IMG/VR virus record: IMGVR_UViG_3300007511_001192
Span: 1 to 21,604 of that record
Origin: a virus
DNA length: 21,604 nucleotides
Direction: 5' to 3' (one strand)
Both the position numbers and the translations under genes were made by a program. Within the stretch, counting starts at the first letter, position 1, and every line of letters starts with the position of its first letter. The notes under the pieces were generated by a model. It was not told the origin of the DNA. It searched no databases and was given only the letters and a program-made list of their open reading frames with translations. Positions 1 to 19,383 of this stretch are shown here, piece after piece.

Positions 1-329
1 TGAGCGAGTTTTTTGATTATGACCCTCTGACGGGTGTGAAGTCGTTCTTCGACTACGACGAGCTGTCGGGGGTGGCGACGATCCGCGAGGAGCAGAACAT
101 CCAGCCGTTCGTTGACTACGCGACGAAGGTCCGCAACTCCGGGCTGACCGACAAGGGCATCAAGGAGGACTGGTGGAAGTACTGCATCATCCCGACGGTT
201 GTCCAGCTCGAGCTGTTGAATAAGGGTATTAACATCCTGGACCCAGACCCGGACGTTCTGAAGCGGGCGTTCAAGGAGATCAATGAGAACTACCCACACT
301 TGAAATTGACGGAGAAGCATCACCAATGA
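1..329 (+). CDS. Small phage protein with duplicated FFDYD motif (5' end cut by one base)
   Basis: The frame is open from the left edge and reads S-E-F-F-D-Y-D-P-L-T-G-V from base 3. Bases 1-2 are TG, so one missing A would give an ATG at position 0. The full product is then about 109 aa. An internal GTG at 36 would also open the frame but would cut off the first copy of a repeat: FFDYD-PLTGV is followed 13 residues later by FFDYD-ELSGV. The rest is acidic and soluble, with no signal peptide. From memory, small proteins with this N-terminus occur among head/connector genes of tailed phages, but I know no function. Its TGA overlaps the ATG of the next gene by 4 nt, so it belongs to the virion operon. 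Confidence 0.75.
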   Translation, partial: SEFFDYDPLTGVKSFFDYDELSGVATIREEQNIQPFVDYATKVRNSGLTDKGIKEDWWKYCIIPTVVQLELLNKGINILDPDPDVLKRAFKEINENYPHLKLTEKHHQ

Positions 330-1795
330 GCAGAGCGGAAGAGCGAAAGAGGGACCTGGTGATAGCCAGGCACCTGGCCGACGCCGGCGAGCTGGACCAG
401 GCTTACACGGTTGCGGACAAATGGCTAAACCTGGATCCGAACGATGGGCCGTTCCTGACGGTGCTTACGTCCATAATGATTCAGTCGGAAAAAAGACCGA
501 TCGCGTACGCACTATCCAAGAAGCTGACTCAGCTTATGCCGAACAATGCTGCGTCCTGGATCAACATGGGACAAGTCTCGGCTGACCTGTGGATGGTGAC
601 GGAGGCGAAGAGGTGCTACAGGAAGGCCGCGGAGCTCGCCGAGAGTCCCAGGCAGAAGTCGATGATCTTGATCAATATGGCGGCAATGCTGATCGATTTG
701 GGCGAGTGGGCCGAGGCTGAAGAGTACGCGCTTAAGGCGCAGCAGCTCCGCGAGAATGAGCTGTTCGAGGAGGACCGGCACCGTGACGAGAATGACAACA
801 AGGCGCTCGCTAATCTTTCGTTTTGCCAACTGGCTCGGCGACAGTGGAAGGAGGGATGGAAGAACTACCGGAAAACACTCGGACACGATCAGTGGCGACC
901 CAGGAACCAGTACGCCGAGGAGCCGGAGTGGAACGGCGGCAAGACCAGGCAGCTCGTTCTGTACGGCGAACAGGGCCTGGGCGACCAGATCACGTTCGCG
1001 AGCATGCTTCCTGATTGCCAGGAGCTTGCGGATGAGGTCATCTTCCACTGTAACACCGAGCTCCAGCCGCTCATGGAAAGGTCATTCCCTGACGTCACCG
1101 TCTACGGCGCCCTCGGGTCCGACGAGCTGAACTGGGAGCCTGAGCACCAGGAGCCGACGGCGTCCCTGGCTGTCGGGCAGGCTGCTCAGTACGTTCGCCG
1201 GCATGATGTGGACTTTCCGGGTACGCCCTTCTTGACGCCCGACCCGGACAGGATGGCGATGTGGAAGGCGCTCTTCGAGACCAAGAAGAAGCCTGTCATC
1301 GGTATCACCTGGCAGGGGGGTATCCCCAGGACCGGGGCGAAGTTCCGACAGATGGCGCTGGAGGACCTTGAGCCGGTCTTCGACGCGGTCGACGCGCACT
1401 GGGTGATCTGTCACTACAAGGACACGAAACACGAGGTTCGGGCGTTCAAAGATAAGCGCCCGGACATTGATATTGGCGAGTACCCGTGGGCCACATTGTC
1501 TCGGGACCTCGACAACTCTGCTGCGCTGATCGCGTCATGCGACATGGTGCTGACAATGCAGCAAACAGCGGGCCACATTGCTGGTGCCGTTGGTGCCCCG
1601 GTGTGGGTATTTGTAACGAAGAACTCACAGTGGCGGTACGGCCTGGAAGAGTATGAGGACATGCCTTGGTACAACTGCATGCGCCTTATTCGACAGAGGG
1701 TACGCGGCTCCTGGAAGAGCGAGATAGAACAGGTATCAGGAGAGATAGGTGCTTATATCGAAGGAATACGCAGCGGAACAGCAGAAGCTGCATGA
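326..1795 (+). CDS. TPR-repeat glycosyltransferase (GT9-like C-terminal domain)
   Basis: This 489-aa protein has two parts. Residues about 10-185 are helical TPR-like units (for example ASWINMGQVSADLWMVTEA and the pair around MLIDLGEWAEAEEYALKA). Residues about 205-470 resemble the glycosyltransferase domain of TPR-GT9 proteins. Supporting motifs are GEQGLGDQITFASMLP, the strand VIGITWQGG, the CDMVLT...AGHIAGAVGAPVWV segment that usually binds the nucleotide sugar, and a W-R-Y...PWYNCMRLIRQ ending typical of the family. No membrane segment is seen, so it should be cytoplasmic. TPR domains fused to glycosyltransferases often recruit protein acceptors, as in O-GlcNAc transferase, so glycosylation of a virion or host protein is plausible; that is inference. 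It starts by ATGA overlap with the preceding gene and heads a three-gene sugar cassette. Confidence 0.85.
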   Translation: MSRAEERKRDLVIARHLADAGELDQAYTVADKWLNLDPNDGPFLTVLTSIMIQSEKRPIAYALSKKLTQLMPNNAASWINMGQVSADLWMVTEAKRCYRKAAELAESPRQKSMILINMAAMLIDLGEWAEAEEYALKAQQLRENELFEEDRHRDENDNKALANLSFCQLARRQWKEGWKNYRKTLGHDQWRPRNQYAEEPEWNGGKTRQLVLYGEQGLGDQITFASMLPDCQELADEVIFHCNTELQPLMERSFPDVTVYGALGSDELNWEPEHQEPTASLAVGQAAQYVRRHDVDFPGTPFLTPDPDRMAMWKALFETKKKPVIGITWQGGIPRTGAKFRQMALEDLEPVFDAVDAHWVICHYKDTKHEVRAFKDKRPDIDIGEYPWATLSRDLDNSAALIASCDMVLTMQQTAGHIAGAVGAPVWVFVTKNSQWRYGLEEYEDMPWYNCMRLIRQRVRGSWKSEIEQVSGEIGAYIEGIRSGTAEAA

Positions 1796-2282
1796 GGATC
1801 GACCGGATTACGGAGCGGCGAGCGTAAAGTATGCGCCAATTGTTTCGTCAATTATTGAAAAGCTCAAAGTGCAGCAGTTGCTGGACTATGGGTGCGGAAA
1901 GGGGAGGTTGTTCAAGAACCTCAACGTCGGGCACGAAATGCAACTGCAGGCGTACGACCCTGGGGTGCCGGCCTTTAGCGGCGAGCCTTCCCCGTCAGAG
2001 ATGGTCGCGTGTATAGACGTCCTGGAACATATCGAGCCGGAATATCTCCAGGACGTAATCGACGACCTGGAGCGCGTGACGAAGGAGGTCTTGTTTGCAA
2101 GCGTCCATATGGGGCCCGCTGGCAAGACGCTATCCGACGGGCGCAACGCGCACTTAACGCAGGAGCCGGTGATCTGGTGGCTACCACAGCTCATGGACCG
2201 CTTCGACCTGCAGCAGTTCACCCTGGTGAGTCCGGTGGAGTTCTTCGTTGTGATGACCGCCAGGCCGGAGGTGGAGATATGA
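1749..2282 (+). CDS. Class I SAM-dependent methyltransferase, small
   Basis: The product is 177 aa. Residues about 41-53 (LLDYGCGKGRLFK) match the SAM-binding motif I (hh-D-x-G-x-G-x-G) of class I methyltransferases. ACIDVLEHIEPEYLQDVIDDL is the usual motif IV region, in which an acidic residue precedes LEH as in Methyltransf_11/23 proteins. The chosen GTG at 1749 lies inside the end of the glycosyltransferase gene and is preceded at close range by AGGAGAG. The stop overlaps the next ATG as ATGA. Lying between two glycosyltransferase genes, it probably methylates a sugar or glycan, or a precursor, although the substrate cannot be read from the sequence. It lacks the DPPY or PC motifs of DNA methyltransferases. 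Confidence 0.82.
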   Translation: MLISKEYAAEQQKLHEDRPDYGAASVKYAPIVSSIIEKLKVQQLLDYGCGKGRLFKNLNVGHEMQLQAYDPGVPAFSGEPSPSEMVACIDVLEHIEPEYLQDVIDDLERVTKEVLFASVHMGPAGKTLSDGRNAHLTQEPVIWWLPQLMDRFDLQQFTLVSPVEFFVVMTARPEVEI

Positions 2283-2992
2283 TTCGCATCTTCGTTGGTT
2301 TTGACCAAAGAGAGGCGGCGGTCTACCACACTTTTTGCCAGTCGGTGATTGAGCATGCGTCGGTGCCGGTGTGTTTTATTCCTCTGGCTGAGTCGATCCT
2401 AAAGTTCGACGGTCAGCAAGACGGGACGAACCAGTTTATCTATTCCAGGTACCTGATACCGATGCTGTGCGGGTACGAGGATGTTGACGCGCTGTTCTTT
2501 GACGGTGACATGATCGTCAACCGGGACATCGCCGAGCTCCTGGCGGACGTCGACAGAAGCAAGGCGGTCTCAGTGGTAAAGCACCAGTATGAGACGCAAC
2601 ACCCAAGGAAGTACCTCGGGACGCCGATCGAGAACTTCAACACCGACTACCCGAGGAAGAATTGGAGCTCAGTCGTACATTGGAACTGTGGGCACCCGAA
2701 GAACCGCATCCTGACAAAGGGGTTCGTCGGGAGCGCCGGCGGCGAGTTTCTGCATCGATTCAAGTGGCTTGACGATGACGAGATAGGCGACCTGCACAAT
2801 GACTGGAACTGGCTGGTCGGCGAGTATCCTGAGAACTCCGGGGCGGCCTGCCATCATTACACCCTTGGGGCGCCCGGTTTCGAGTATTATATGGACTGCG
2901 ACCATGCAGATCGGTGGCAGTCCACCCTGGTAAGAGCGATCAACATGGCCGGCGAGAATCCGGTCGAGATGGTCAAACGCGCATGGCAATAA
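2279..2992 (+). CDS. Glycosyltransferase, GT8-like with DxD motif
   Basis: The 237-aa product begins MIRIFVGFDQREAAVYHTF, an edge strand and nucleotide-binding opening common in phage and bacterial GT8-like enzymes. FFDGDMIVNRDIAEL at residues about 73-87 supplies the DxD motif (D75, D77) that binds metal and the sugar nucleotide. ACHHYTLGAPGF near residue 200 matches the C-terminal H-x-T-x-G metal-binding region of the family. The frame stays open upstream to 2009, but the ATG at 2279 overlaps the methyltransferase stop as ATGA and has GGAGG a short distance upstream, so the long version is rejected. It is the third gene of the sugar cassette and overlaps the adaptor gene by 10 nt. The donor sugar and acceptor are unknown. 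Confidence 0.83.
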   Translation: MIRIFVGFDQREAAVYHTFCQSVIEHASVPVCFIPLAESILKFDGQQDGTNQFIYSRYLIPMLCGYEDVDALFFDGDMIVNRDIAELLADVDRSKAVSVVKHQYETQHPRKYLGTPIENFNTDYPRKNWSSVVHWNCGHPKNRILTKGFVGSAGGEFLHRFKWLDDDEIGDLHNDWNWLVGEYPENSGAACHHYTLGAPGFEYYMDCDHADRWQSTLVRAINMAGENPVEMVKRAWQ

Positions 2993-3618
2993 TCACGGAC
3001 TACGACAGCTTGGACGCAGCCGTCGACGGCTACCTGCACCGGACGGACCTGAGTTCCTGGGTGCCAAATTTTATCCAGAACTGCCAGTCGAAATTGTATA
3101 GGAAGTATATGATTCGCGACATGGAGAAGGCCCTGTCGGTCTCGGTCTCGGGCGGCACTGGCGCTGTCCCGTCGGACTACAGGGCGATGAAGTTCTGCTA
3201 TGCCGACGGTAGCCCGACGACACCGTTGCGGTTTGTTAGCCTGGAGGAGCTCTTCGACGAGTACCCCCAGCGCGACGAGCAGGGCACCCCGAACCTAGTC
3301 TCCAGGGAGGTTGGCAATTTCGTCTTCGGTCCCGGCAACCCGGCGGACTTCAGTATGAAGGGCGTCTACTACTACACGTACACGCTCCTGAGCTCCGGTG
3401 GCAAGACGACCAACTGGTACACGGATGAGGCGCCCGAGGTTCTGCTCTACGGATCACTCCTGGAGGCTGCGCCCTTCATTGGCGATGACGAGCGGATGCC
3501 CTTGTGGCAGGGTCTGTACCTTGAGGCATGCCAACTGGCAGAGCTCGAGGTTAAGCGCGAATACCTGTCGGGAGGAACGAAGCGGGTCCGCACACAGGCA
3601 GCAGGGAGTCGTGCCTGA
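2983..3618 (+). CDS. Head-tail adaptor protein (SU10-adaptor type)
   Basis: The 211-aa protein opens MAIITDYDSLDAAVDGYLHR, followed by WVPNFIQNCQSKLYRKYMIRDMEKAL, and then PSDYRAMKFCYADGSPTTPL. This order is typical of podovirus adaptor proteins of the SU10/P22-gp4 sort, which form a ring under the portal and connect it to the tail. The C-terminal helix (MPLWQGLYLEACQLAELEVKRE) also fits that family. The frame is open back to 2914, but the ATG at 2983 gives the conserved N-terminus; its Shine-Dalgarno is weak, so it is probably coupled to the glycosyltransferase upstream, which it overlaps by 10 nt. The portal and capsid genes expected before it must lie left of the window. Confidence 0.75.
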   Translation: MAIITDYDSLDAAVDGYLHRTDLSSWVPNFIQNCQSKLYRKYMIRDMEKALSVSVSGGTGAVPSDYRAMKFCYADGSPTTPLRFVSLEELFDEYPQRDEQGTPNLVSREVGNFVFGPGNPADFSMKGVYYYTYTLLSSGGKTTNWYTDEAPEVLLYGSLLEAAPFIGDDERMPLWQGLYLEACQLAELEVKREYLSGGTKRVRTQAAGSRA

Positions 3619-5039
3619 TGCCGCGCACATCAATAGTGCAGCGGAAGCAGCGGGTCAGGATTGACTTTTTGGCCTGGAACCCCGACCAGGATGCGTTTAA
3701 TAACCCAGGCCTGACGGTTGCCACAAACACCATCCACCAGCCTGGAGGGTATAAGCAACTTAAAAGCCAAGCGACGGTCGGCTCAAAACCTGTCGGCACG
3801 GCAACTATTCTCGCGCCCAGGTACATTCCGTTCCCCGGTAATGACGACGACCTGACGGAGTCAATCTACGTCGGGGTCAATGCCACCTCTGGAGGACACA
3901 GGATTTACGCCAGCGCCAACGGTGGAACGAGCTGGACCAAGAAGTACACCGGAAGTGGATCGGTCTCCTGGGTTGACTACGCGCAGTACGACGACCATGT
4001 GGTGGCGGCGTTCGGCGGTTCAAGCGCGAATAACGCCGTAAACACCGACAACGGAAGCCTGACGTCGATCGGGTTCTCGTCTGACCTCCTGGGGGTGATC
4101 GGTGACTTCGTTATAGCCGGCAGGCCGTCGGGCTATGGAGACGAGGGGGCGCATGCCGTCAGGTGGTGCAATATTGGCGACCCTACGACCTGGGCCACGC
4201 CGGGGACTGACGCGGCCAGGGCGGCCCAGGCTGGGATTGAGTTCCTCGACCCGGTGTACGGCACCGTAACGGGTATCGCTGGGGGCCAGTTCTTTGGTTA
4301 CATCCTGCAGCAGCGCGGCATAGTCAGGGTGACATATGTAGGCGGTGACGGGGTATTTCGATTTCAATACGTGTCCCGAGGAATCGGCTGCTACTCGGTT
4401 AACAACTTCTGCCAGGTCGAGGACCTGGTGTTCTTTGAGTCAGCGAGCGGTTACTACATGCTCCAGGGTGGCGCGGTTGTCGATATCGGCAAGGGCGTTG
4501 TAGCGGAAAGCTACCCACCTGAGGATCACGAGGCGCCAAACAGCTACATCGGATCGGTCCACGCGAACCCGGCGATAAACTGTGTGTTTTGGACGGCGGG
4601 TCTAATCTACAACTACAAGTCCGGCTACTGGACGATCGGCGACGACATTAGTCCTCGGTACTCAATAAACAACGACGCGGGCGTTATCGGCGAGCTCACC
4701 TCTAACGGGAAGCTGTCGCTCCGCACGGGTTCGGCAAAGCAGGCCACGTTCACAACCCAGGAGACTGACCCAAACCCAGCGGGGCGGGCCTTGGTCACGG
4801 GCATACGGCCAATCATCAACAACCCGTCGACCTTGACGAACGTCGTCGTCAGGGTCGGCTCAAATGATCAGTACAACAACTCTCACACGTTTAGCCCTTC
4901 CTCGACGGTAAATAACACTACGTTCAAGGCGGACGTTCTGTGGGAGGGGCGAAACCTAAGGGCGGAGGTTAAGGTTAGTGGAGGATTCACAAGGGCACTC
5001 GGACTCGACGTCGAGTTCATCCCCCAGGGCATTAGGTAG
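3618..5039 (+). CDS. Virion structural protein, tail hub/nozzle candidate
   Basis: This 473-aa protein is dominated by short beta strands and turns rich in Gly, Ser, Asn and Thr. It has repeated units that look like propeller blades (for example HRIYASANGGTSW, DLVFFESASGYYMLQGG and YKSGYWTIGDD). There is no signal peptide or transmembrane helix. Its position just after the adaptor gene and its size match the beta-propeller nozzle or packaged-DNA stabilisation proteins of short-tailed phages (P22 gp10 or the SU10 nozzle); that placement is inference from synteny and composition. The ATG overlaps the adaptor stop as TGATG, with AGGGAG upstream. A part of a tail tube or a general virion protein is the alternative. 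Confidence 0.65.
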   Translation: MPRTSIVQRKQRVRIDFLAWNPDQDAFNNPGLTVATNTIHQPGGYKQLKSQATVGSKPVGTATILAPRYIPFPGNDDDLTESIYVGVNATSGGHRIYASANGGTSWTKKYTGSGSVSWVDYAQYDDHVVAAFGGSSANNAVNTDNGSLTSIGFSSDLLGVIGDFVIAGRPSGYGDEGAHAVRWCNIGDPTTWATPGTDAARAAQAGIEFLDPVYGTVTGIAGGQFFGYILQQRGIVRVTYVGGDGVFRFQYVSRGIGCYSVNNFCQVEDLVFFESASGYYMLQGGAVVDIGKGVVAESYPPEDHEAPNSYIGSVHANPAINCVFWTAGLIYNYKSGYWTIGDDISPRYSINNDAGVIGELTSNGKLSLRTGSAKQATFTTQETDPNPAGRALVTGIRPIINNPSTLTNVVVRVGSNDQYNNSHTFSPSSTVNNTTFKADVLWEGRNLRAEVKVSGGFTRALGLDVEFIPQGIR

Positions 5040-10573: not shown

Positions 10574-11698
10574 GTGCCGCAAATACGTGAGCTCCTGAGG
10601 GGGTCTCTTCTGAGCCCAAATAAGAACCCGGAAGAGGTCGAGATGTACATCGACCGACCCGAGGTTATTATCGAAGCGTTCGCTGACGGGGACACGACGC
10701 CGTCCGTCCTCTCAAGCGTGACGAGCGTCTTCAAGACTGCCAACACCAGCGCGACGACCATTACGACCTTTGACGACGGTCGCGTCGGCCAGGTTGTCGA
10801 TATTATCGTCGGGGATTCAAACACGACGTTTGATTTCTCCGGGGGCGGGAACCTGGTTAATGGCAACGGAGCTGATGTCACGCCGTCCTCAGGCAATCAG
10901 ATGAAGGCGATCTACGACGGAACGAACTGGTTCTGTATCGGCACCGGGGAGGTATCCGGTATTAATATCGTTGAGGACACAACCCCTCAGTTGGGCGGAC
11001 AGCTAGACGTAAACGGTCAGTCTATTAAGTTCGATGACAACGAAGATATTATTTTCGGCACTGGGGATGATGTTCGGATCGACTGGAACGGCTACCACCT
11101 GATCATCGGTGGTGTGACCTCCTCTGGGTATATCCATGTGATCGAGCGTACGCTAAAGATGATGAACTCCGACGCGTCGATGGAGCTTGCGCTGGTTCAC
11201 AACGGATCGAACGGATACGTCGGCACGGGCGTCAACAGCGGCCCGTTGCTTCTTGGGCATCAAGGGACCCCTACGGTCAAGACGCAGAGTCACTTGGCTT
11301 CTGGGAACACCTCTGGCGCGACCCTTATTAATCACGCCGCGGCGGATGTCGACATAGGGTTCAATTTGCTTCCGTCGTTTAATTTTAATGCGTCGGACAC
11401 CCTTGAGGCCCGGCATTGCGGCGCCATCACCGGCAAGACGGACACAAGTTCGTATACCTTAACCGGGCCGACATCAAGTGACACGGACTTTCCGGTGGGC
11501 GGGGTGGCTACTGTTGCCAATTTTGGTTCATCGACCAATTACTCCCTCGCGGATACTGCGTCATGCACAATGTACATCTGCGACGGCTCGAGCGTGTCAG
11601 ATATTTCCGGCAGTGCCGCACTGGCCCCTGGCGGGATGATAACTTTGTACAGGTACTCGACCTCTGCCATATATATAACCGGGTCCGGTGTCAGTTAG
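10574..11698 (+). CDS. Tail-fibre-like / receptor-binding candidate
   Basis: The 374-aa protein is nearly all beta-type sequence rich in Gly, Ser, Thr, Asn and Asp. The first half has a segment around GTNWFCIGTGE that is frequent in phage fibre and appendage proteins. Next comes VEDTTPQLGGQLDVNGQSI, a linker I recall from many marine phage tail fibres. The remaining C-terminal part is predicted to form a beta-rich tip. It lacks a recognisable chaperone or SGNH-hydrolase domain. The start is GTG 10574, immediately after the TAA of the previous gene, with GGGGAGG upstream. Position just before the lysis genes fits a distal tail protein. Confidence 0.72.
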   Translation: MPQIRELLRGSLLSPNKNPEEVEMYIDRPEVIIEAFADGDTTPSVLSSVTSVFKTANTSATTITTFDDGRVGQVVDIIVGDSNTTFDFSGGGNLVNGNGADVTPSSGNQMKAIYDGTNWFCIGTGEVSGINIVEDTTPQLGGQLDVNGQSIKFDDNEDIIFGTGDDVRIDWNGYHLIIGGVTSSGYIHVIERTLKMMNSDASMELALVHNGSNGYVGTGVNSGPLLLGHQGTPTVKTQSHLASGNTSGATLINHAAADVDIGFNLLPSFNFNASDTLEARHCGAITGKTDTSSYTLTGPTSSDTDFPVGGVATVANFGSSTNYSLADTASCTMYICDGSSVSDISGSAALAPGGMITLYRYSTSAIYITGSGVS

Positions 11699-15822: not shown

Positions 15823-16608
15823 TCATTTCGACCTTGCACTCAGCACCCGCCAGGCTTTTGCTGCGGTTTGCGGCACGACTCCGTTCCCCAAGAGCCTAAG
15901 TCGGTCAGCCCGATTTTCACACCCATCAACCACTCGCAAAATTCCGGGTTCAGTTGCCCAGTACATTTCTCCCTGCCACCCTCCCTGTTTATCACTACCG
16001 TTGTAAGCGATTCTTGCGTTCCTTTTTTGTTCGTGTCGCGTCTCTGGTATCCCAGCCGTGCCTCGTGGGCTGACGGCGTCGGCCATAATAAACACCCGTT
16101 TTCTTTCGTGCGGCGCACCGACTTCTGCCGCGCTAAATATTCCCCATTCTGTGCGATAACCATCTTCCTCCAAGTCGGATATGACTGTCGACAGTCCAAG
16201 CGAAATGTGGCCGAAGACGTTTTCGAAGAAAACGCGAAAAGGTCTGACTGCTTGAATGATGTCCCTGATGTAAGGCCAGAGGTGCCTGGGATCATCTTTT
16301 CCTGCTCGCTTTCCGGCAGAGGAAAATGGCTGGCAGGGATATCCCCCAGTGATAACGCTAACTCTGTCTCGAAAGCATTCCACTGGGAGGGTTTTAAGAT
16401 CCGTCCAAACAGGTGCGGGAGCCAACTGAGCCGTTTCCATCTTCGCAACCAGGTTGGCAATGGCGAAGGCTTCGATCTCCACATGAGTGATGACTCGATG
16501 TCTAAACCCAGCAAGCTCAAGTCCTCTCTCGATACCCCCATATCCTGTGCAAAGACTGAGTACAGTGGGTAGTTGTTTGGGATTATCCACATCAGATTTC
16601 CCCAACAT
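15823..16608 (-). CDS. C5 cytosine DNA methyltransferase (Dcm family)
   Basis: The 261-aa enzyme shows the motifs in order: I (VLSLCTGYGGIERGLELAG), IV with the catalytic Cys92 (GGYPCQPFSSAG), VI (FFENV), VIII (HERKRVFI) and X (LLGNGVVPQTAAKAW). The target recognition region between VIII and X is only about 55 residues, which is short but usual for small phage orphan enzymes. It adds a methyl group to carbon 5 of cytosine, probably to hide phage DNA from host restriction; no partner endonuclease is seen. ATG 16608 has no good Shine-Dalgarno, whereas GTG 16590 in the same frame has GGGGA at a good distance and would still give motif I. The gene lies in the leftward operon. Confidence 0.93.
   Translation of the reverse strand: MLGKSDVDNPKQLPTVLSLCTGYGGIERGLELAGFRHRVITHVEIEAFAIANLVAKMETAQLAPAPVWTDLKTLPVECFRDRVSVITGGYPCQPFSSAGKRAGKDDPRHLWPYIRDIIQAVRPFRVFFENVFGHISLGLSTVISDLEEDGYRTEWGIFSAAEVGAPHERKRVFIMADAVSPRGTAGIPETRHEQKRNARIAYNGSDKQGGWQGEMYWATEPGILRVVDGCENRADRLRLLGNGVVPQTAAKAWRVLSARSK
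15840..16592 (-). CDS. Possible overprinted ORF inside the methyltransferase gene
   Basis: This 250-codon ORF lies wholly inside the methyltransferase gene on the same strand, in another frame. It starts with ATG 16592, which has GGGGA six bases upstream and overlaps the stop of a nine-codon leader. Segments such as SSLMWRSKPSPLPTWLRRW, SYPTWRKMVIAQNGEYL, LLWPTPSAHEARLG and GQLNPEFCEWLMG (followed by GLTDL) resemble, from memory, free-standing phage and prophage proteins annotated near C5 methyltransferases. Conserved codons of the methyltransferase read one base off would by themselves yield part of this; motif X upstream RVVDG...RADRLRLLGN lies over EWLMG...GLTDLGSWGT. It may be a true overprinted gene or a conserved artefact. 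Confidence 0.35.
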   Translation of the reverse strand: MWIIPNNYPLYSVFAQDMGVSREDLSLLGLDIESSLMWRSKPSPLPTWLRRWKRLSWLPHLFGRILKPSQWNAFETELALSLGDIPASHFPLPESEQEKMIPGTSGLTSGTSFKQSDLFAFSSKTSSATFRLDCRQSYPTWRKMVIAQNGEYLARQKSVRRTKENGCLLWPTPSAHEARLGYQRRDTNKKGTQESLTTVVINREGGREKCTGQLNPEFCEWLMGVKIGLTDLGSWGTESCRKPQQKPGGC

Positions 16609-18271: not shown

Positions 18272-19228
18272 TCAATATGCAACGCACTCTTCGCACACAG
18301 TACCGCTCAAGTCTTTCTTTAGGTGCGCCTCGCGAATCCCCGTGAATTGTTCGTTATTCCAAATCTCCATCCAGTCATCATCATGAAGATTGCCAACCTG
18401 AAATCTCCCGTCTGCGTCAAAGCAGCACAGGGACACAATCCCGTCAGCGCGGACATGACCCTCAGTAAAAGCCGACCAGCAAGGCAAGGGGCTGACCAGG
18501 CCGCCTATTCGCCCCTGGTTTCCAGCGGTCGGCCTATACCCCAACTCCGCCTCTCGCTCGGTTGCTACCGATCCCATCGAATACAGCGGTAGCCAGTAGT
18601 GTTCATCAACAAAAGGCTCAACTCGCTCCTTGACAAGAGTCTCCATTCTCTCTTGCTGCTCTCCGTCATACTTGATTGATGACGCATATATCCTGGTCTT
18701 GTACTTGCACCTGTCTCGTATCTCACTCGTTCGCTTGAGATTAACAAGCGCTTGCTCATAGAGCTTCGCCTTAACCCCCATCACCTCTTCAAATTGCTCA
18801 TCATCAGAGGCGTTAATTGAAAACTTGAGCGAATCCAGCCCCGCATTCATCAGGGCATGAATAACCCTCTCACCGCACAAAGAGCCATTCGTGGTCAGAA
18901 AGACATAGGGCATGGCCAAATCCCACTTCAGCCACTGAACCGCCTGAACGGCTAACTCGGGGGCCATGAGGCTCTCACCCAAGTAAAAAATACCTATTTC
19001 CTCAACACCCGCCTCATGCATTTGAGCGGTTATCTTCTTGAAGAAATCAATACCCATGTCCTCTGAAACCTTGGGCTGCTCATCTCGCATCCTCAAAGCA
19101 CAGAAACCACACCGATAATTGCACCGCCCAGTCAATTCAATTTTGACCGACTTCGGGCAGGGGGGTTTAGCAGTTAAATATTCCGCAGGTATATGCGTAA
19201 TATTGTCGATCTTGTCCGTAATAGTCAC
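18272..19228 (-). CDS. Radical SAM enzyme with SPASM-like C-terminus
   Basis: From GTG 19228 (AGGAGAGG six bases upstream) the product is 318 aa. C36-N-Y-R-C40-G-F-C43 is the C-x3-C-x2-C cluster site that binds the iron-sulfur cluster used to cleave SAM. The following YLGESLMAP segment fits the GGE-like SAM-binding motif. The C-terminal part has LPCWSAFTEGHVRADGIVSLCC and ends C-E-E-C, matching a SPASM/twitch region that binds a second cluster. Such enzymes modify peptides, sugars or other small molecules; the substrate is unknown. The frame is open to 19282, but that start has no ribosome site. A phage gene of this class is unusual but recorded in marine viruses as I recall. Confidence 0.85.
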   Translation of the reverse strand: MTITDKIDNITHIPAEYLTAKPPCPKSVKIELTGRCNYRCGFCALRMRDEQPKVSEDMGIDFFKKITAQMHEAGVEEIGIFYLGESLMAPELAVQAVQWLKWDLAMPYVFLTTNGSLCGERVIHALMNAGLDSLKFSINASDDEQFEEVMGVKAKLYEQALVNLKRTSEIRDRCKYKTRIYASSIKYDGEQQERMETLVKERVEPFVDEHYWLPLYSMGSVATEREAELGYRPTAGNQGRIGGLVSPLPCWSAFTEGHVRADGIVSLCCFDADGRFQVGNLHDDDWMEIWNNEQFTGIREAHLKKDLSGTVCEECVAY

Positions 19229-19383
19229 TCTAGCCCTCTCCTTGTGACGGCTCACAAAAAACACACCGGCTAATTCAACCAATGCATCACAATAAAGTCG
19301 GGGACCAGCCTGGGGAGGGGACAGGCCGCTCTTCCGAGTAAAGTCCCCTATGCCCTAAGGCAATTCCATCCTTGGAAATAATG

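Follow-up and report, generated by a model that had tools for sequence, protein, structure and literature searches.

The viral contig IMGVR_UViG_3300007511_001192 of the IMG/VR collection, a linear and incomplete sequence of 21,604 bases that was analysed over its whole length (hereafter the window), carries at its start three genes packed between a small head-side gene of family F6 and the gene for an SU10-type adaptor. They encode a protein in which tetratricopeptide repeats are joined to a glycosyltransferase (TPR-GT), a class I S-adenosylmethionine (SAM) methyltransferase (MT) and a GT8-like glycosyltransferase (Table 1). Comparison with relatives in viral and bacterial contigs suggests that this cassette is probably a cytoplasmic protein O-glycosylation system whose target is a virion protein encoded by the same operon, most likely the major capsid protein (MCP).

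The initial annotation had described three coupled genes between a small head-side gene and the adaptor, and its coordinates are right: F6, the cassette and the adaptor form a run of five overlapping genes, the overlaps from F6 through to the nozzle-like gene being, in order, 4, 47, 4, 10 and 1 nt. The MT starts with a GTG codon preceded by AGGAGAG. Across the loci compared, 208 of 221 gene junctions overlap or are at most 30 nt wide, a figure inflated by the calling of open reading frames (ORFs) from the most upstream start codon. Single-protein scans for close relatives returned only a near-identical contig, L002 (99.9% identity across 6,950 bases), and alignments were used as queries thereafter. 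L002 extends 1.4 kb further upstream and supplies the full copy of F6 (109 aa, 1466-1795). Directly before that gene, at the position that the capsid gene occupies in relatives, lies an ORF of at least 439 aa (L002 2-1321), for which Pfam and NCBIfam searches gave no match.

Table 1. Cassette genes of the window, their borders and a conserved codon
Feature	Position	Strand	Evidence
Small head-side protein gene (family F6)	3..329	+	phrog_3982 E 1.3e-4; 5' end outside the window
TPR-GT, 489 aa	326..1795	+	Pfam TPRs (TPR_2 E 1.7e-8) and model
Asp220 codon of TPR-GT, motif GEQGLGDQ	983..985	+	D in 70/70 aligned
Class I SAM methyltransferase (MT), 177 aa	1749..2282	+	phrog_24759 methyltransferase 8.7e-17
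GT8-like (GT-A) glycosyltransferase, 237 aa	2279..2992	+	phrog_28018 2e-35; Glyco_transf_8 E 6.7e-4
SU10-type adaptor (head-tail connector), downstream border of the cassette	2983..3618	+	SU10_adaptor PF24175 2.3e-19; phrog_2941 1.5e-29
Head-closure/nozzle-like virion gene	3618..5039	+	phrog_3287 virion structural protein 5.5e-15

The cassette enzymes

The TPR-GT consists of an N-terminal TPR superhelix (about residues 1-185) and a C-terminal GT-B domain (about residues 203-485). Its AlphaFold2 model, built from 70 sequences (predicted local distance difference test, pLDDT, 95.6; predicted template modelling score, pTM, 0.92), has TPR helices followed by a Rossmann-like glycosyltransferase half. 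This catalytic half superposes on the GT9 structure 3tov (Z 17.5, root-mean-square deviation (rmsd) 3.2, 262 residues aligned), on the GT9 enzyme WaaF (1psw; Z 16.8, rmsd 3.3, 256 aligned) and on TibC (Z 16.4, rmsd 3.2, 248 aligned). The top Foldseek rows for the model were O-GlcNAc transferase (GT41) and SPINDLY, matched over the whole length at rmsd 8-15; in superpositions of the model, GT9 rows gave rmsd 3.2-3.7 against 8.3-14.7 for O-GlcNAc transferase rows. GT41 and SPINDLY likewise join a TPR superhelix to a GT-B domain, but the glycosyltransferase half of the phage protein fits GT9 better. TibC, a protein heptosyltransferase of a bacterial autotransporter with a protein acceptor, shares the GT9-like fold; it differs in being an iron-containing dodecamer, according to its PDB title, and in that its aligned part has no TPR domain. 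At E <= 1 the window protein had no Pfam match to Glyco_transf_9, nor to Glyco_transf_41, for which no sensitive profile-profile search was made; a bacterial relative in locus L188 gave a weak Glyco_transf_9 match (8e-4, 19.2 bits, under the 22-bit cut-off). Judged by the model, the catalytic half appears to be GT9-like and is not clearly an O-GlcNAc transferase. Of the earlier label, OGT-like, the TPR plus GT-B architecture stands and membership of the O-GlcNAc transferase family is not supported. Gly219 and Asp220 are invariant in the 70 aligned sequences, and Asp220 may be the catalytic base, by analogy with GT9 heptosyltransferases.

The second gene product is, by its motifs, a class I SAM methyltransferase. 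Its Pfam match to Methyltransf_23 (E 0.0044) lies under the cut-off of that family; the glycine-rich SAM-binding motif reads DYGCGKG, with D46 and G48 present in all 58 aligned sequences, as are D90, E93, H94, R132, N133 and H135. For the GT8-like enzyme, the Glyco_transf_8 match reaches 19.8 bits, under the 24.3 cut-off, and further profile matches were to WbbM (2.3e-4) and to a GT8 structure (0.02). Both aspartates of its DxD motif, Asp75-Gly-Asp77, are conserved in 64 of 64 aligned sequences.

Placement at the capsid site and co-divergence with the capsid

The set recurs at the same place in many viral contigs. An MT-pair scan of IMG/VR contigs found 544 relatives, of which the best 80 were kept and gave 80 loci (contig ends were ignored in these counts). 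In every one a TPR-GT lies at most 3 kb away on the same strand, and GT8 was found in 57, the downstream adaptor in 72 and an upstream SU10-type capsid gene in 53; the order is TPR-GT/MT/GT8 in 33 and TPR-GT/GT8/MT in 24, and in the other 23 GT8 was not seen. When the TPR-GT was the only query (566 relatives, best 80 kept, 80 loci), an SU10-type MCP lay upstream in all 54 loci with at least 1.5 kb of upstream sequence and the adaptor in 47 of the 50 with at least 4 kb downstream; MT was present in 61 of the 68 loci whose downstream sequence reaches 1.5 kb or more, and GT8 in 33 of 50. Starting from the MCP only (577 relatives, best 80 kept, 57 loci reaching the adaptor), a TPR-GT was found in 28 loci (MT in 21, GT8 in 14, all three genes in 12) and was missing from 29. 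F6 occupies 52 of these 57 capsid-adaptor intervals, cassette present or not, and in relatives sits between the capsid gene and the cassette. The samples of these scans share contigs and are not independent; the same-contig overlaps L001, L102, L103, L105, L106, L114, L144 and L156 were left out of locus counts, distances and substitution ratios.

A second podophage lineage (L003, L015, L016, L017 and L116) has all three genes upstream of an adaptor. The capsid gene upstream in the first four encodes a phrog_334 major head protein, which belongs to another family, so that the set occupies the capsid-adaptor interval beside more than one capsid family; L116 has a phrog_156 portal. One member is the Manatee Spring podophage ctDrO704 (L003, MW202512.1), whose TPR-GT, MT and GT8-like proteins are 28%, 42% and 40% identical to those of the window. 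Past its capsid gene follow TPR-GT, an HNH-endonuclease-like gene, MT, GT8-like gene, another gene where the window has its adaptor, and then one for a phage-stabilization protein. Among deposited phage genomes, none was found to combine the complete set with a named host. The HNH-endonuclease-like gene between TPR-GT and MT (L003 15178-15654), annotated 'endonuclease', probably encodes a homing endonuclease.

The capsid site is not universal for viral TPR-GTs, since in the podophages L018-L020, as in ct7QV12 (L004), the TPR-GT relative belongs to a separate glycan cluster close to the terminase. A gene annotated as a pyridoxal phosphate (PLP)-dependent enzyme is also present in L004. Single or paired GT8 and MT homologues occur near tail or head genes in Caulobacter jumbo phages, Tetraselmis virus S20, Roseobacter phage CRP-9 and Pelagibacter phage Mosig; these are given as context and were excluded from the counts. 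In the Caulobacter jumbo phages, which have a cultured host, adjacent GT8 and MT homologues (L007 9208-11386, L008 7183-9385, L012 5213-7385) are placed after the tail genes and before the lysis genes, and in CcrColossus a gene annotated as a family 9 glycosyltransferase follows the pair.

The LUZ24/PaP3-like and SU10-type structural module shows the same order of terminase, portal, scaffold, MCP, small protein and adaptor. The seven records of this kind that were examined (PaP3, Venkman, HTVC106P, two Manatee Spring genomes, ctyzp037 and phiM5; L176-L182) have MCP, small gene and adaptor at the site but, unlike the window, no TPR-GT, MT or GT8 of this family there.

The presence of the TPR-GT follows the ancestry of the capsid protein. 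A tree of 109 MCPs was computed with the variable loop removed, after MCPs under 290 aa and identical copies had been dropped (116 to 109); this tree and the loop comparison below left out capsid loci that end before the adaptor with no TPR-GT shown. The TPR-GT label requires 2 changes on the tree against a mean of 30.5 for shuffled labels, and 72 of 73 bearers fall on one side, the exception being L245 from a Bradyrhizobium metagenome-assembled genome (MAG); the branch dividing the two sides is weakly supported, and it was by way of the cassette that most bearers entered the sample. Pairwise distances of the TPR-GT correlate with those of the MCP at r 0.93 (49 loci), compared with 0.91 for the portal and the MCP (33 loci), 0.76 for MT and 0.56 for GT8; in 200 permutations no value as high as those observed was obtained. 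Whether the set moves together, a question raised with the initial annotation, is thereby answered in the affirmative: the divergence of TPR-GT and MT tracks capsid and portal, that of GT8 less so.

Selection on the cassette is purifying. Median ratios of nonsynonymous to synonymous substitution (dN/dS), excluding pairs with saturated dS, are 0.14 for TPR-GT (17 pairs), 0.12 for MT (20) and 0.20 for GT8 (10), next to 0.16 for the adaptor (12) and 0.095 for the MCP (12). Because the same genes recur at the same place in many contigs under such selection, the set is not a chance assembly; low dN/dS and co-divergence together indicate that the cassette genes are functional and that the TPR-GT behaves as a core virion gene.

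This behaviour bears on the idea that the set remodels lipopolysaccharide, capsule or some other glycan of the host surface for receptor masking or superinfection exclusion, with the GT9-like domain acting as a heptosyltransferase. Heptosyltransferases of GT9 are indeed the closest folds of the catalytic half, and glycosyltransferases that modify host serotype during lysogeny are known (as stated in PMC12619734). Nevertheless, the genes sit within the late virion operon and diverge together with MCP and portal, and a TPR half fits a protein acceptor. Hydropathy over 19 residues stays below 1.6 in the window GT8 and MT and in all aligned GT8 (64) and MT (58) sequences, and the window TPR-GT peaks at 1.18, though 31 of its 70 relatives reach 1.6. 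In line with the initial annotation, the Pfam scan of 20 window proteins from this incomplete contig found no polysaccharide polymerase or transporter, and no flippase or lipid-linked transferase. A host-surface role is accordingly regarded as improbable.

Candidate acceptors and bacterial relatives

We consider it likely that the set glycosylates a virion protein, and within that reading the balance tips towards the MCP. When the portal is held constant (25-31 loci), the TPR and glycosyltransferase halves of the TPR-GT correlate with the MCP at 0.53 and 0.54, with the small protein at 0.40 and 0.32, and with the adaptor at 0.13 and -0.02. That the acceptor might instead be F6, the adaptor or another virion protein is unlikely: F6 is directly upstream and translationally coupled to the TPR-GT through the 4-nt overlap, and its partial correlation is 0.32-0.40, yet it occurs with and without the cassette, the phiM5 F6 is not marked in the particle proteome while its neighbours are, and the correlation with the MCP exceeds that with F6 or the adaptor.

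A variable stretch of the MCP offers a possible site. It is longer in cassette bearers (median 35 aa versus 27 in non-bearers) and richer in Ser and Thr (38% versus 30%), whereas outside it their share is slightly lower in bearers (0.167 versus 0.175). The mean number of Ser and Thr residues in the stretch is 16.9 with all three genes (12 loci), 10.6 with TPR-GT and MT (8 loci), 11.6 with TPR-GT alone (5 loci), 9.5 with TPR-GT and GT8 (2 loci) and 8.4 with none (29 loci). This Thr/Ser-rich loop is a candidate glycan acceptor, in a link confounded by ancestry: with just one or two changes of the trait along the tree, the loop difference is a lead and not a test, and independent-pairs tests of it could not reach significance. 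The MCP model (pLDDT 73.6) is of low quality over some of the loop region, for which reason no position of the loop on the capsid is claimed.

Another family, F14 (about 150 aa), usually lies between the capsid gene and the small gene, as in L060 (5783-6256) and 15 other loci. In a Planctomycetaceae MAG, its model also matched the neighbour of a TPR-GT array (L192 1463-2041; 3e-7). Searches of Pfam, PHROG and NCBIfam gave no match for F14, and the guess that it is a sialyltransferase found no support in these family searches.

Outside viruses, the relatives lead towards protein filaments. Searching genome contigs with the aligned TPR-GT sequences yielded 535 relatives; the best 80 were retained and fall in 76 loci, mainly bacterial and chromosomal, with homologues 26-36% identical to the query. 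At least two TPR-GTs are present in 39 loci, GT8 in 23, MT in 16 and both GT8 and MT in 11. Motifs marked a type IV pilin or flagellin gene in 21 of the 76, and the same motifs were found in none of the 176 viral and phage sequences scanned (window, L001-L175). The first 50 of the 76 loci contain 13 pilin and 5 flagellin genes counted by motif, against 0.19 and 0.25 expected from the Pfam Pilin (52) and Flagellin_N (87) genes of the same whole genomes (206.6 Mb); they fall in 15 of the 50 loci, mostly at most 1 kb from a TPR-GT. Ten motif pilins were checked: nine carry Pfam Pilin and all ten the N-methylation motif. Three of the genome loci resemble phage modules (L204 from Reyranella, L224 from a Thiotrichaceae MAG and L245), and in a quick FastTree of 167 glycosyltransferase domains, which has long branches, viral and bacterial members split with two changes. 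The best reading of these relationships is that the set was borrowed from bacterial filament glycosylation.

The same adjacency raises the prospect that the phage enzymes glycosylate the host's pilin or flagellin, blocking a receptor or motility. Such a role is very unlikely, as it leaves the MCP co-divergence and the fixed place in the capsid operon unexplained and none of the 176 viral and phage sequences scanned showed a pilin or flagellin motif. Hypermodification of phage DNA bases is more improbable still: virus-encoded glycosyltransferases can modify DNA, according to PMC12619734, but a C5-methyltransferase is the sole base-modifying enzyme among the scanned window proteins and the bacterial homologues keep company with protein filaments. 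Each of these two readings, like the host-surface one, is less likely than modification of a virion protein. The preference of the initial annotation for a protein of the virion operon over a change of host surface sugars gains contextual support from the MCP tree, the recurrence at the capsid site and the pilin- and flagellin-side bacterial relatives.

Under the favoured reading, glycosylation of a virion protein, the TPR half would hold the unassembled acceptor, and the GT9-like half would take a single sugar from a nucleotide-sugar donor and attach it to side chains of Ser or Thr. In many of these phages a further sugar would be added by the GT8-like enzyme, and the MT would methylate the glycan, or possibly the protein, so that GT8 and MT would extend or cap the glycan. 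The benefit may be particle shielding, stability or adsorption.

Several observations weigh against this picture. The window has no MCP gene, and the extra 1.4 kb of L002 holds another ORF with no recognisable capsid gene, so that MCP adjacency in the window phage is drawn from its relatives. An SU10-type MCP and portal lie upstream in those relatives, and neither occurs in the window or in the added L002 sequence. The loop difference amounts to one or two independent contrasts. GT8 is missing from many sets and tracks the MCP at only the r of 0.56 given above, and at position 413 the window TPR-GT has Gln, with Thr there in 63 of 70 relatives. The capsid-adaptor interval also hosts unrelated genes: an HNH endonuclease, a GDSL hydrolase in phiM5 (detected in the particle) and, in ctyzp037, a GT2/Anp1-like transferase different from the cassette enzymes. 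Finally, the low identity to the bacterial homologues means that their acceptor cannot be carried over to the phage.

Further features lie downstream in the window. A protein with a Phage_depo_C domain (10574-11698, plus strand; PF25692 3.7e-8) is possibly a depolymerase or tail spike. On the minus strand, a 261-aa C5 DNA methyltransferase (15823-16608; PF00145 1.4e-30) and a 250-aa ORF in another frame of the same strand (15840-16592; phrog_1008 DNA methyltransferase 2.3e-21) possibly form a fully overlapping gene pair, and a radical SAM protein with a SPASM domain follows at 18272-19282 (PF04055 2.8e-13, PF13186 6.9e-12).

Relation to known systems and significance

The closest functional parallel is FlmG, the flagellin O-glycosyltransferase of Caulobacter crescentus, in which, according to PMC7591256, the TPR domain binds flagellin and the GT-B domain is needed for glycosylation. 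FlmG, which the same paper describes as soluble and cytoplasmic, resembles the phage TPR-GT in having an N-terminal TPR and a C-terminal GT-B domain. It differs in being bacterial and in placing pseudaminic acid on flagellin, whereas the phage gene lies in a capsid operon with MT and GT8. The likeness is one of architecture. By analogy, we propose that the phage TPR domain binds the acceptor and the glycosyltransferase domain glycosylates it. The bacterial TPR-GT arrays (L184-L250) belong to the same TPR-GT family and often have the same GT8 and MT homologues; unlike the phage set, they are chromosomal, often contain at least two TPR-GTs and include a gene for a filament-subunit acceptor.

Glycosylated capsid and tail proteins linked to phage glycosyltransferases are described for mycobacteriophages (Freeman et al. 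2023, as relayed in PMC11256854 and PMC12619734). Those are other phages, with the Maravista transferases near the 3' end of the genome. Both phage virion glycosylation and protein glycosylation by TPR-GTs are known in kind; among the papers listed in the literature searched, whose coverage was partial, no account was found of the TPR-GT/MT/GT8 set or of the union of the two as a fixed capsid-operon trait in an environmental podophage branch. Tentatively, and a little short of even confidence, we suggest that an SU10/LUZ24-type podophage branch, on one or a few occasions, acquired the bacterial pilin/flagellin O-glycosylation kit and redirected it towards the Thr/Ser-rich loop of its MCP, making a glycan-coated and possibly methyl-capped capsid a core inherited trait and not an accessory one. 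The same tentative scenario holds that this branch is large and hardly present among deposited phage genomes.

If this proves true, capsid glycosylation would be ancestral and fixed across a broad branch of environmental podophages, where the sources above report virion glycosylation for a few mycobacteriophages. These phages would then share their machinery, a modular TPR-GT kit, with the bacteria that apply it to pili and flagella. It would then become testable how TPR domains choose self-assembling subunits, what role a glycan coat plays for a phage outside an animal host, and whether the ecology of environmental phages is shaped by glycan-dependent adsorption or shielding.

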